NCBI RefSeq assembly: GCF_030145185.1 | Contig: NZ_JAQYWB010000043.1 | Coordinates: 1 to 53,160, forward strand | DNA: 53,160 nucleotides | Direction: 5' to 3' | DNA from: Desulfoluna sp. | Lineage (GTDB): Bacteria; Desulfobacterota; Desulfobacteria; Desulfobacterales; Desulfolunaceae | Part shown: piece after piece, positions 44,104 through 48,104 of the stretch | Layout of the letters: the number at the start of each line of letters is the position of its first letter | Position numbering within the stretch: the stretch's first letter is position 1 | Position numbers and translations under genes: made by a program | Notes under the pieces: generated by a model | The model's input: the letters and a program-made list of their open reading frames with translations, nothing else | What the model was told of the DNA's origin: nothing | Database searches by the model: none

Positions 44104-44281
44104 TTATGCATTTATTTAAAAAAATGGAAAGTACAGAAGGGAAGCGCGACCGGAATTTATATTCAAGGTTGCAGCCCTTTTTTTAAAGGATGTGACATAA
44201 AAACACCTGACGTGAAAGAGCAGAAAGCCCCATGCCGGGTTTCTTCTTTTTTTTGTGCGGGTTACCAGACAAAGAGGGATC

Positions 44282-44905
44282 ATGCAAAAGCCGAAGAACG
44301 CACAAGAAGGTATTGCACAGCTCAGGGCGGATGTTGCCGGGAGTCCTGACTGCGGAAACAGCCACTACAATTTGGCCGTGGCCCTTATGGGCGTTAAAAA
44401 TTATGATGAGGCAGAAGCCTGCCTCAACGACGCCGTGGGATGCAGCCCTACTCTGGCCGAGGGGTACGTGATGCTCGGAAGTATTGCCCTGCAGCGTGAT
44501 GATGTCGAGGGCTGTCTCTACTACAACACATTGGCCACCAAGTCCCGGGCCGGGTTTGCCGTGGGGTATGGCAATATTGGTTTTCTGGAGCTGCAACGCG
44601 GCAATGTGGAAGAGGCCATTAAAAACCTCAAGAAAGCCATTGTGCATAACTCCAAGTTTGTGCAGGCCTATACCACCCTGGCCAACGCGTACCTGATGAA
44701 AGGCCTGGTGGATGAGAGCATCGAAATGAGCCTGAAGGCCCTTGAGGCCGAGCCGGATTTTCCCATCTCACACCACAACCTGGGAATCGCCTATCTTGAA
44801 AAAGAGGATTACGCACAGGCGATTGTGCACTTTGATAAGGCACAGTCCATGGGGTATGAGGTGCCCGAAGCCCTTTTGAAAGAGGTGGAACCCCACCGCG
44901 TTTAA
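44282..44905 (+). CDS. Tetratricopeptide-repeat protein
   Basis: The 207-residue protein is built almost wholly of TPR units (about five: for example NSHYNLAVALMGVKNYDEAE, VGYGNIGFLELQRGNVEEAI, ISHHNLGIAYLEKEDYAQAI). No signal peptide or membrane segment, so cytoplasmic scaffold. ATG 44282 has GAGGG five bases upstream. It is separated from the next unknown gene by a terminator. Its partner is unknown. Confidence 0.85.
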   Translation: MQKPKNAQEGIAQLRADVAGSPDCGNSHYNLAVALMGVKNYDEAEACLNDAVGCSPTLAEGYVMLGSIALQRDDVEGCLYYNTLATKSRAGFAVGYGNIGFLELQRGNVEEAIKNLKKAIVHNSKFVQAYTTLANAYLMKGLVDESIEMSLKALEAEPDFPISHHNLGIAYLEKEDYAQAIVHFDKAQSMGYEVPEALLKEVEPHRV

Positions 44906-44918
44906 ATTCTGATAAGTA

Positions 44919-44953
44919 AAGCCCCCTGCGGTGTGTGCAGGGGGCTTTTTTTT
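44919..44953 (+). terminator. Intrinsic terminator of the TPR gene
   Basis: Stem GCCCCCTGC / GCAGGGGGC with a 7-base loop followed by eight T, 16 bases past the stop. Confidence 0.93.
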
Positions 44954-45010: not shown

Positions 45011-46132
45011 ATGAAGATTACCTGGAGTCTGCCGGGTCACAGCAGCAGTGGCAAGATTGATGAGAAGGTGCTGGCAACCCCCCTTCCTGCGAATCGGGTC
45101 TATGAAGAATCGGGTCTTTGTTACGCACACTATGTCCGCGCCGTGGAGACGGTTCTTAAGCAGGAAGAGACTCGCAGGGACGGGTTGATGGAAGCCCTCT
45201 TTCCCGGGACAGCGCCCGAAGTTCACGGTGTCCATGTGGAGATTTTAAAGCATGGACCGTTTTATCACCCGGCGCGTATGACCCTTGAAACCGATGCCGG
45301 TGCGTTCTCTCTGGTGATTAATCTGGCGGTGACCTCCGAAGGGGGCGCCTGCGCCGAACGTGAATTTGCCCTGCTTGGGCAGCTGGCTGAAAGAAGCGAG
45401 GCACTCCCTCGGGTCTATCTCCTCAAGGCCGTCGATGTGGATGGGCATCGGGTGGTCCTTTTTTTCGGGGAGTGGTTTGACGGCTTTCATGAGTTTCATC
45501 AGACACGGCGTCCCGAAGGGGATCGGGTGGTGGTCTGGGCAGGCGAATCCCATGGCCTGGTGACCCGAGAGACGGAATGCTCGATCTACTGCCAGTCGGC
45601 TGATATTCTCACCCGGCTCTACAATCCGCTCTCCTTTGCGTTGGTCCAACCCTGGCATCATGCCGCCGGGGATTTTGTCGTCAACATGGAGGCGACTCTG
45701 CCGAGGGTGCGATTGATCACCCTGCGGCAATATATCCCCATGGCCGAGGTGGATGACATCGGGGCCGAGGAGATTCTGGAGGGAGCCCTCTTTTTTTTGA
45801 TGATGCTCTCGATTCGAAATCGCCTGGACCGATACGATGGCATCGGTGAGGTCGCCTGGGTGGGGACCCACAGCGTGAAATCCACCCTCGATGGTTTTTT
45901 TACAGGGGCGGCGTATCATCAAAATATCGGTCCCCTTGAGGGGGCGTTTGGCCCGTGGGTTAAAGATTACCTGGTCACTTATACCGAAGAAGAGTTTCGT
46001 GAAACGGCCGATGCGGTGGTCTCGTCCTTTAATCCACAAGCTTCTGAAATGGGTGTCATAAGGGAACATATTGCAGACCATGTGGCGGAATTTTATCGCA
46101 TCATACAGGCCTTAAATATTCATCAAGAGTAA
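45011..46132 (+). CDS. Protein of unknown function upstream of dsr
   Basis: The 373-residue soluble protein (MKITWSLPGHSSSGKIDEK...) is not a family I can name. It contains VVLFFGEWFDGFHEFHQ after a basic and hydrophobic stretch, loosely recalling the hinge of kinase-like folds, but no clear HxD or DFG catalytic motif is visible, so I assign no function. AGAAGAG precedes the ATG at 45011. It lies between the TPR gene and the dsr leader, all on the plus strand. Confidence 0.7.
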   Translation: MKITWSLPGHSSSGKIDEKVLATPLPANRVYEESGLCYAHYVRAVETVLKQEETRRDGLMEALFPGTAPEVHGVHVEILKHGPFYHPARMTLETDAGAFSLVINLAVTSEGGACAEREFALLGQLAERSEALPRVYLLKAVDVDGHRVVLFFGEWFDGFHEFHQTRRPEGDRVVVWAGESHGLVTRETECSIYCQSADILTRLYNPLSFALVQPWHHAAGDFVVNMEATLPRVRLITLRQYIPMAEVDDIGAEEILEGALFFLMMLSIRNRLDRYDGIGEVAWVGTHSVKSTLDGFFTGAAYHQNIGPLEGAFGPWVKDYLVTYTEEEFRETADAVVSSFNPQASEMGVIREHIADHVAEFYRIIQALNIHQE

Positions 46133-46176
46133 AAATAATTTTGATTTACATCTTCATTGAAATTGAACAAAGAGAG

Positions 46177-46225
46177 GTATTCACGAGAGAAAAATTTTTG
46201 AAAAATATTTTTCTCTCGTGAATAC
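46177..46225. promoter_or_regulatory. Perfect 19-bp hairpin in the dsr upstream region
   Basis: GTATTCACGAGAGAAAAAT (46177-46195) is repeated in perfect inverse at 46207-46225 with an 11-base AT loop. It starts 45 bases after the upstream gene stops. There is no T-run, so it is not a typical terminator; candidate operator, RNA structure or Rho-linked 3' end. Confidence 0.75.
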
Positions 46226-46503
46226 AAATCGAATAAAATCAGAAGAATCACTGTGATACTCGTGGGTTGTTGATGGCGGCGGCAGGGTCACCCCTCCTCC
46301 AATCAGGGGGGGCTGCGTGAAACCATTTAATTTTTGGCATTCCGTCACTTTTTTCCATTTTTAAAAGTCCATGCAAGATATCAGGAATTCTCAGTAGGTT
46401 ATCCTCATGATTATTTTTGATTAATAAGAGCGTATTGATATGGGATGTCTTGGGGAGCGGATGGAATGTAAAGCCTTAATAACCACGGAAAAAAGCTTTT
46501 TTA

Positions 46504-46532
46504 TTGACAATAAAAGTCAATAACTTTATACC
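46504..46532 (+). promoter_or_regulatory. Candidate dsr promoter
   Basis: TTGACA (46504-46509), 17-base spacer, TATACC (46527-46532). The -35 box is part of ATTGAC-N7-GTCAAT, an inverted repeat that could be an operator. It would give a leader of about 190 bases before dsrA. No other feature was seen in the rest of 46133-46727. Confidence 0.5.
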
Positions 46533-46727
46533 ATGGATTTGATAATAGGGTCATTGTAATTTTTCAATGGAAATTGCATAGACAATAGCAGCTGGAACTT
46601 TCGTTTTGGCTGTTATTTTATGTAGTTTAAGGTTTAAGGTTTGAGTGACTTGGCGGGTAGAATCAAATGGAGCTCATTTGGTTTTGTTTTGTTGAGTTAA
46701 AATTATTTATTCAATGGAGGTAAGGCA

Positions 46728-48104
46728 ATGGCAAAGCATAACACCCCTTTGTTGGACGAGCTGGAATCCGGGCCGTGGCCAAGCTTTGTGTCCGACATCA
46801 AGCAGGAAGCTGACGTCAGGGCAAAGAACGAAAAAGGAATCGATTTTCAGATTCCTTCCGAAGCTTGCGACGATCTGCTTGGACTTCTTGAGCTCTCTTA
46901 CAAAGATGGAACCACTCACTGGAAACATGGCGGTATCGTAGGTGTTTTCGGTTACGGCGGTGGCATCATCGGGCGTTACAGTGACAAGCCCAAAGAGTTT
47001 CCTGCAGTGGCTGCTTTTCACACGATTCGTGTTTCTCAGCCGGGTGCAAAGTATTACACCACCGAGTTCCTGCGTCAGTTGATGGACCTCTGGCAGCTTC
47101 GTGGCTCCGGACTCACCAACATGCACGGCTCCACCGGTGACATCGTTCTGCTGGGCACCACGACCCCTCAGCTCGAAGAGATTTTCTACACCCTGACCCA
47201 TGATATGGATCAGGACCTCGGCGGTTCCGGGTCCAACCTGCGAACCCCCGCTGACTGTATCGGTCAGTCCCGCTGTGAATACGCTTGCTACGACACTCAG
47301 GAGATCTGCTACTTCCTGACCATGATGTATCAGGATGAACTCCACCGCCCCGCATTCCCCTACAAGTTCAAGTTCAAGTTTGACGGTTGCCCGAACTGCT
47401 GCGTGGCCTCCATCGCTCGTTCTGACCTGTCCTTCATCGGTACCTGGAGAGACCAGATTGGTATTGATCAGGCGGAAGTTGCCAAGTACATCGACGGCAC
47501 CAACCCTGCCAACGCCGGTGCACACAAAGGTCGCGACTGGGGTGCCTTCGATCTCGACGCCGAAGTGCTGAACCTTTGCCCCACCGAGTGCATGAAGTAC
47601 GAAGACGGAAAGCTCACCATCAACGACAAAGAGTGTACCCGTTGCATGCATTGCATCAACGTCATGCCCAAGGCGTTGAAAATTGGTAAGCAGCGCGGTG
47701 TCTCTCTCCTCGCCGGAGCCAAGGCTCCCATCGTGGACGGCGCTCAGATGGGTTCCCTCATCGTTCCCTTCCTTGAAATTGACCAGACCATGAACAAGCA
47801 GCTGGCAGATTTCGAGTCTGAAGAAGAATGGATGGAATACCTTGAAGAGAAGTATGCCGGAGTCGTCGAAGTGATTGAATCCATCTGGGATTACTGGATG
47901 GAAGAAGGTAAGAACCGTGAGCGTCTCGGTGAGTTGATGATCCGTCAGGGCCTTCAGAAGCTGCTCGAAAAAATCGGCATGGAGCCCCAGGCCGTACACG
48001 TCGATCATCCCCGTACCAACCCCTACATCTTCTGGAAAGAAGACGAAGTACCAGGTGGCTGGGACCGTGACATCAACGAATACAGAAAGCATCACGCACG
48101 CTAG
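46728..48104 (+). CDS. dsrA: Dissimilatory sulfite reductase, alpha subunit
   Basis: Catalyses sulfite reduction with DsrB in the cytoplasm, holding siroheme and 4Fe-4S centres. The 458-residue protein has the siroheme-cluster cysteines C177 and C183 ([11 protein letters not shown]) and C221 and C225 (CPNCC). A ferredoxin-like insertion has CPTEC at 284 and CTRCMHC at 303-309. GGAGG precedes the ATG. dsrB follows after 11 bases. Reductive type is indicated by dsrD behind it and the absence of oxidative dsr genes such as dsrEFH nearby. Confidence 0.99.

Follow-up and report, generated by a model that had tools for sequence, protein, structure and literature searches.

A conserved promoter and a predicted folded leader upstream of dsrAB in Desulfoluna

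The stretch of Desulfoluna sp. DNA analysed here (the window, 53,160 nucleotides) carries dsrA and, downstream of it, an ORF at the position expected for dsrB, then dsrD (PF08679) and then a cobyrinate-diamide-synthase-like gene, the kind known as dsrN. Between the end of the upstream ORF at 46132 and the dsrA ATG at 46728 lies a gap of 595 bases, as the initial annotation had reported when it called these bases non-coding; no ORF of at least 60 aa lies wholly inside the gap, and two mechanically called ORFs overlap its last 21 bases. Three separate things may share this gap (Table 1), namely a 3′-end hairpin of the upstream gene, the promoter of dsrAB and a folded 5′ UTR, and as one complete account we hold this with a confidence somewhat short of even. 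The gap is of nearly constant length in Desulfoluna (595 bases in the window; 600, 593, 594 and 599 in relatives; 701 in G003), which contrasts with the 45% identity of the 250 nt preceding the promoter in these species.

Table 1. Features at and upstream of dsrA, in window coordinates
Feature	Position	Strand	Support or remark
TPR gene upstream of the 373-aa gene	44255..44905		also matched ahead of dsrA at many other loci
12-bp GC-rich stem with T-run, terminator-like	44918..44948		between the TPR gene and the 373-aa gene
Upstream gene, 373 aa from ATG, kinase-like fold predicted	45011..46132	+	AlphaFold2 pLDDT 92.3
Hairpin, 19 perfect pairs, 11-nt loop	46177..46225	.	-25.1 kcal/mol, z -9.07
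Conserved block CTTTTTTATTGACA, T-tract and -35 hexamer (TTGACA, 46504-46509)	46496..46509	+	alignments of the family and of the wider set
Palindrome ATTGAC-N7-GTCAAT over the -35	46503..46521	.	found only in this species
-10 hexamer TATACC	46527..46532	+	8/8 in the family
dsrAB mRNA 5′ UTR as predicted (about 189 nt, with the start placed from the -10)	46539..46727	+	conservation; MFE z about -5
Leader hairpin I	46576..46623	+	-20.2 kcal/mol, z -5.85; both-sided changes in 7/21 pairs
Leader hairpin II, base GACUUGGC / GUUGAGUU	46647..46698	+	-17.1 kcal/mol, z -4.38; both-sided changes in 5/21 pairs
dsrA Shine-Dalgarno GGAGG, not within either hairpin	46716..46720	+	sequence
dsrA	46728..48104	+	TIGR02064, 573 bits

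For comparison we used a family set of eight Desulfolunaceae, consisting of six Desulfoluna and the sister genera G006 and G007, and a wider set made up of same-order genomes and the best 80 of 581 genome_contigs matches to dsrA. G001 belongs to the same genus as the window, and over the last 250 nt before dsrA it is identical to D. limicola NZ_AP024488.1. For the wider set, upstream regions were taken from the best dsrA matches and do not cover all of the 343 genomes with a match among the 389 of the order; regions identical over the last 200 nt were merged, which reduced 170 to 157. The subsets used below are the 155 leaders with at least 130 nt, the 153 regions with at least 350 nt, the 154 leaders with GGAGG and enough flank, and the 131 leaders that were folded.

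The gene upstream of the gap encodes a protein with no Pfam or NCBIfam match, and a Pfam search with 39 of its homologues gave stray matches only (best E 0.028); a profile search of solved structures returned one match, at E 0.25. When the AlphaFold2 model was compared with known structures, the best Foldseek match was GAK kinase (E 8.5e-6), and VIA-align placed the aminoglycoside phosphotransferase APH(2'')-IVa at the top (Z 13.6, rmsd 3.6, 215 aligned) and also found homoserine kinase (Z 13.4, rmsd 3.7, 230 aligned). Invariant residues of the protein include K80, H81, G82, G220, D221, F222, D273 and R274. The gene is thus predicted from the model to encode a kinase-fold protein, either an active kinase or a pseudo-enzyme. 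A same-strand homologue precedes dsrA in 72 of 118 loci, a count in which loci are unmerged and include pairs from one genome (for example L007 and L053), and in which loci with 1500 nt upstream may miss a homologue.

Past the stop codon of this gene, the initial annotation had described a 49-base hairpin of 19 perfect pairs and no T-run, and the description is accurate. The hairpin starts 44 nt past the stop codon and is AT-rich, with 6 G-C pairs among its 19; AAATCGAATA stands right after the stem in the place of a T-run, and a terminator scan has no entry for it. Its stem is the longest perfect stem of the 53-kb window, the next being 12 bp, which is also the maximum reached in 20 shuffles. 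Rfam microRNA matches over the hairpin stayed below their gathering scores. In a sample of the same genome (20 stretches from contigs C1-C20, L133-L152, 354,947 bases) we counted 18 perfect hairpins of at least 12 bp, nine of at least 15 bp and four of 19-21 bp, hence such a stem is not rare for this organism. The perfect hairpins of 15-21 bp are unrelated in sequence, several lack a T-run, and many lie shortly past stop codons. When the four shortest of the 18 are left out and the hairpin of the window is included, 9 of 15 fall 0-50 nt past the nearest stop and 12 fall 0-174 nt past it; these distances were taken from mechanical ORFs of at least 90 aa and are rough, because 4 of the 15 hairpins also lie inside another, shorter mechanical ORF.

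None of the five other Desulfoluna has the sequence of the hairpin in the gap before dsrA, and the same slot is differently occupied there: at +52 to +54 past the upstream stop (+44 in the window) G005 and G002 carry canonical intrinsic terminators, G001 carries a 7-bp stem, and G004 and G003 have no clear hairpin. Moreover, the dsr leader would comprise only the ~189 nt past the promoter, and thus the hairpin falls outside the predicted dsr transcript. The hairpin had been presented as part of a long dsr leader, a reading that lack of conservation in close relatives was to refute; it lies upstream of the promoter and is missing from this gap in 5/5 of the other Desulfoluna, and the reading was rejected. 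By sequence and position, it is most likely the 3′-end hairpin of the upstream gene's own transcript. It would then be an element of the terminator slot, which stops or protects the end of that transcript and takes no part in dsr regulation. Like an intrinsic (Rho-independent) terminator, it is a stable hairpin shortly past a stop codon, in the slot where G005 and G002 carry canonical ones; unlike such a terminator, it combines a perfect 19-bp stem of few G-C pairs with the lack of a T-run, and hence it is not a canonical intrinsic terminator.

The promoter of dsrAB, TTGACA-17-TATACC, had also been proposed in the initial annotation, with its -35 inside ATTGAC-N7-GTCAAT, and this sequence is present and conserved. 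It is kept in 8/8 Desulfolunaceae and is 94.5% identical among the six Desulfoluna. In the wider set, the pattern of a T-rich stretch, TTGACA, 16-18 spacing and TAT or TAA was found in 133 of 153 distinct dsrA upstream regions and in 17 of 7650 shuffled ones, with a spacer of 17 in 126 of the 133 promoters; the median distance between inferred start and ATG is 152 nt. The consensus over these 126 is about gCTTTTTTATTGACAAg...ATTAATTyTATAnC. Among the 20 upstream regions that the pattern missed, L072, L119, L120, L121, L123 and L127 are from Desulfovibrio relatives or a Desulfohalobiaceae. A scan for consensus promoters did not list the promoter of the window; its rule demands that the second hexamer end in T. 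The promoter of the window resembles sigma-70 housekeeping promoters in its hexamers and its upstream T-tract, and it differs from them in that the conserved block CTTTTTTATTGACA extends past the -35 hexamer, and does so across families. Positions 46496-46532 would be a strong, near-consensus housekeeping promoter for dsrAB, and the palindrome over its -35 would be coincidental.

The palindrome itself is not shared by relatives, since its right arm GTCAAT is changed in 7/7 of the family (GGCAAT in four, other changes in three), and TTGAC-N7-GTCAA is present in 1 of the 133 promoters. The HcpR type 2 site is ATTTGACCNNGGTCAAAT, that is, TTGAC-N4-GTCAA (PMC545781), and the half-site TTGAC/GTCAA of this CRP/FNR-family regulator of delta-proteobacteria recurs in the window, with a spacing of N7 instead of N4 and without conservation. 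The palindrome thus has neither the HcpR arrangement nor the TTGTGA-type form of FNR-like operators, and the remark that it matches no known HcpR site remains valid for the published HcpR sites. In the accessible part of PMC545781, dsrAB lies outside the predicted HcpR regulon of Desulfovibrio.

On an earlier reading, a dedicated dsr regulator would bind either the 19-bp hairpin or the palindrome over the -35 as its operator. The hairpin sequence is indeed far from chance, and the half-site is like that of HcpR type 2 (PMC545781), but neither element is conserved and the spacing is N7, not N4; the palindrome, which is private to this species, was rejected as an operator, and we regard the operator reading as a whole as very improbable. 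The hairpin could also be the leftover of a mobile inverted-repeat element instead of an end-of-gene hairpin, since it is species-specific in the gap, perfectly paired and AT-rich. It is, however, present as a single copy in the genome, on which ground a repeat or mobile-element origin was rejected; moreover, the same slot of the relatives holds hairpins of other sequence, and comparable hairpins of unrelated sequence lie elsewhere in the genome, so that such an origin is highly unlikely.

Downstream of the promoter, the 5′ UTR is conserved as well. Among the six Desulfoluna its mean pairwise identity is 84.8% (gaps counted), as compared with 75% at the third positions of unchanged dsrA codons and 45% in the 250 nt before the promoter. 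The latter stretch lies in the window at 46226-46460 and at its counterparts in the relatives. Invariant stretches of at least 21 and at least 36 nt lie around hairpin II in the six Desulfoluna, and AATGGAGGTAAG at the dsrA Shine-Dalgarno is invariant in 8/8 family leaders. The window leader is about 5 standard deviations more stable than its shuffled versions, all six Desulfoluna range from z -2.46 to -6.04, and hairpins 46576-46623 and 46647-46698 explain the excess stability. In the sister genera G006 and G007, z is weaker than -1.46, and the stability of these leaders does not clearly exceed that of shuffles. Mean z values by group are -3.59 (8 Desulfolunaceae), -0.75 (62 other leaders) and 0.04 (61 leaders that have an extended Shine-Dalgarno, described below). 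Of the leader as first drawn, the palindromes were not conserved; the part that is conserved and covaries is 46576-46698, which had not been singled out.

Covariation was scored on the 8-sequence alignment of the family, sister genera included, from which the structure had itself been derived, and these sequences are few and related. Pair-keeping changes on both sides occur in 12 of 42 pairs, a number reached by 0/500 shuffles, and controls in which the structure was slid along the alignment gave 0-6 such changes; likewise, 92.8% of the cells are paired versus 37-45% in the slid controls. Further pair types over the whole structure were reached by 63/500 shuffles, and this was the one of five measures that did not stand out. 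For hairpin II alone, the count of both-sided pairs was reached by 7/500 shuffles and that of further types by 115/500. Most of the both-sided changes stem from G006 and G007, and within the genus alone they are found in 2 of 60 predicted pairs, in a somewhat larger structure. The leader therefore has the excess stability and the covariation of a structured bacterial 5′ UTR, with stability seen in the six Desulfoluna, covariation over eight sequences and weak folding in the sister genera; as far as sequence comparison goes, it is apparently a modest but real element of this kind.

A covariance model of the leader gave one match per genome, always at the dsrA leader, in 8/8 family genomes, and hence no second copy was seen among the 150 of 219-805 first-look candidates that were scored in each genome. 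At 30 chosen loci from other families, model R1 matched the dsrA leaders only weakly, at best with E 4.4e-4 and 6.1e-4. No Rfam 15 family was found inside 46235-46727 up to E 5, and the loci of eight relatives gave 0 matches at gathering scores, so a known Rfam RNA was rejected as the identity of the leader. Pairing of the leader with the segment beside the Shine-Dalgarno was predicted within the genus, but no longer once the sister genera were added. In a crude duplex test for hairpin II, the window leader reached p 0.12, and a common stem between mid-leader and the region before the Shine-Dalgarno was not in excess, with 6 of 92 and 1 of 62 leaders at p<=0.05, as expected by chance; three of these seven leaders are from Desulfolunaceae. 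A CUUGACA/UGUCAGG stem that had been seen by eye in several families was found to be unsupported beyond Desulfolunaceae and perhaps L010.

dsrAB is the key gene pair of sulfate respiration and encodes a central enzyme of this globally important process, and little is known about what sets its expression; no description of a dsrAB 5′ UTR was recognised among the literature matches listed, and nothing on dsrAB regulation was found in the accessible part of PMC11887813. The present comparison supplies testable parts, which are the promoter (present in 133 of the 153 upstream regions examined), the folded leader of Desulfoluna and the untranslated extended Shine-Dalgarno of other families. The dsrAB transcript would begin near 46539, and its ~189-nt 5′ UTR would fold into two long hairpins just before an open, AU-rich ribosome-binding site. 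Transcription would be high, the folded leader would keep ribonucleases off the 5′ part of the mRNA without obstructing the start site, and the outcome would be a long-lived, well-translated dsrAB mRNA. The most likely role of the leader is to stabilise the dsrAB mRNA or to aid its translation, and together with the conserved promoter it probably helps the cell to make sulfite reductase abundantly. The whole explanation, with a 3′-end hairpin, a housekeeping promoter and a stabilising folded leader, is our preferred one, tentatively and with the balance nearly level.

A protein matching TIGR00649, which we take to be RNase J, is encoded in this genome too, as it is in the setting of known 5′ UTR stabilisers; TIGR00649 scored above cut-off in 14/14 genomes tested, that of the window included, and also in 9/14 control genomes. 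Stabilisers described in Bacillus are hairpins, bound proteins or ribosome-binding sites close to the mRNA 5′ end (PMC3997798), and the leader of the window, with its stem-loops near the 5′ end, is like the class of 5′ UTR stabilisers that work by a 5′ stem-loop or by ribosome binding, which includes the B. subtilis aprE leader and STAB-SD (PMC3997798). It differs from STAB-SD stabilisers in that the Desulfoluna leader is without an untranslated Shine-Dalgarno, which is present in relatives of other families. An effect on mRNA half-life is a prediction.

The main rival to a stabilising leader is a ligand- or protein-dependent switch: acting as a riboswitch or protein-responsive attenuator, the leader would tune dsrAB to a metabolite, for which siroheme or sulfur status would be candidates, or to DsrAB itself. 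Two hairpins with their long invariant stretches (at least 21 and at least 36 nt) precede a cofactor enzyme, a cobyrinate-diamide-synthase-like gene lies downstream, and the terminator scan of G002 lists hairpin II as terminator-like; yet the scan of the window has no site in the UTR, the covariance model matches at dsrA only and once per genome (8/8, with 150 of 219-805 candidates scored), Rfam gave no match, and the pairing beside the Shine-Dalgarno was lost from the prediction once the sister genera were added. We therefore think a switch unlikely. To a similarly small degree, we allow that the conservation reflects promoter, start-site and translation signals only and that the structure has no function of its own. 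The leaders of other families are barely above shuffles (mean z -0.75, n=62; 0.04, n=61), the two sister genera also have weakly folding leaders, and only eight related sequences support the structure. Against this stand the fold of all six Desulfoluna, the excess of paired cells over the slid controls and the conservation of the leader above third codon positions.

Many dsrA leaders of other families carry an extended Shine-Dalgarno (AGGAGGTG, mostly GAGAGGAGGTGA), which was found in 62 of 155 distinct leaders (0.13% in shuffles), 73-111 nt upstream of the dsrA ATG (loci within L017-L187), and in 54 of these 62 no ATG, GTG or TTG stands 3-14 nt past it; GGAGGTG occurs at -125 to -45 in 67 of 155. 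Such an untranslated extended Shine-Dalgarno of the STAB-SD type is absent from the leaders of the window and the family. Leaders that have it are unstructured (mean z 0.04, n=61), and RNAalifold gave no consensus structure over the 67 leaders with GGAGGTG. Two leader designs thus stand behind one promoter, of which the window has the hairpin design. The extended Shine-Dalgarno is a possible 30S parking or mRNA-stabilising element. It is conceivable, though rather doubtful, that a single conserved promoter serves two interchangeable leader designs through which dsrAB of Desulfobacterales is controlled post-transcriptionally: the first would be an unstructured leader with GAGAGGAGGUGA about 85 nt upstream of dsrA and no start codon, which would park the 30S subunit and guard the mRNA, and the other, that of Desulfoluna, the covarying hairpin pair. 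No pairing partner over the whole leader set could be shown for a segment like GTCAGGaTgGTTAAT, which recurs by eye about 20-35 nt before the Shine-Dalgarno in several families and in both leader designs. Exact copies of the extended Shine-Dalgarno 12-mer number 25 in 15 genomes picked for having it or a near variant, with 13 at dsrA (13/15 genomes by position) and 12 elsewhere. Five of the latter have an ATG 6-12 nt on and an ORF of at least 60 aa, four lack a start codon and are embedded in open frames of >250 codons, and the other three are followed by just a GTG or TTG and a short ORF.
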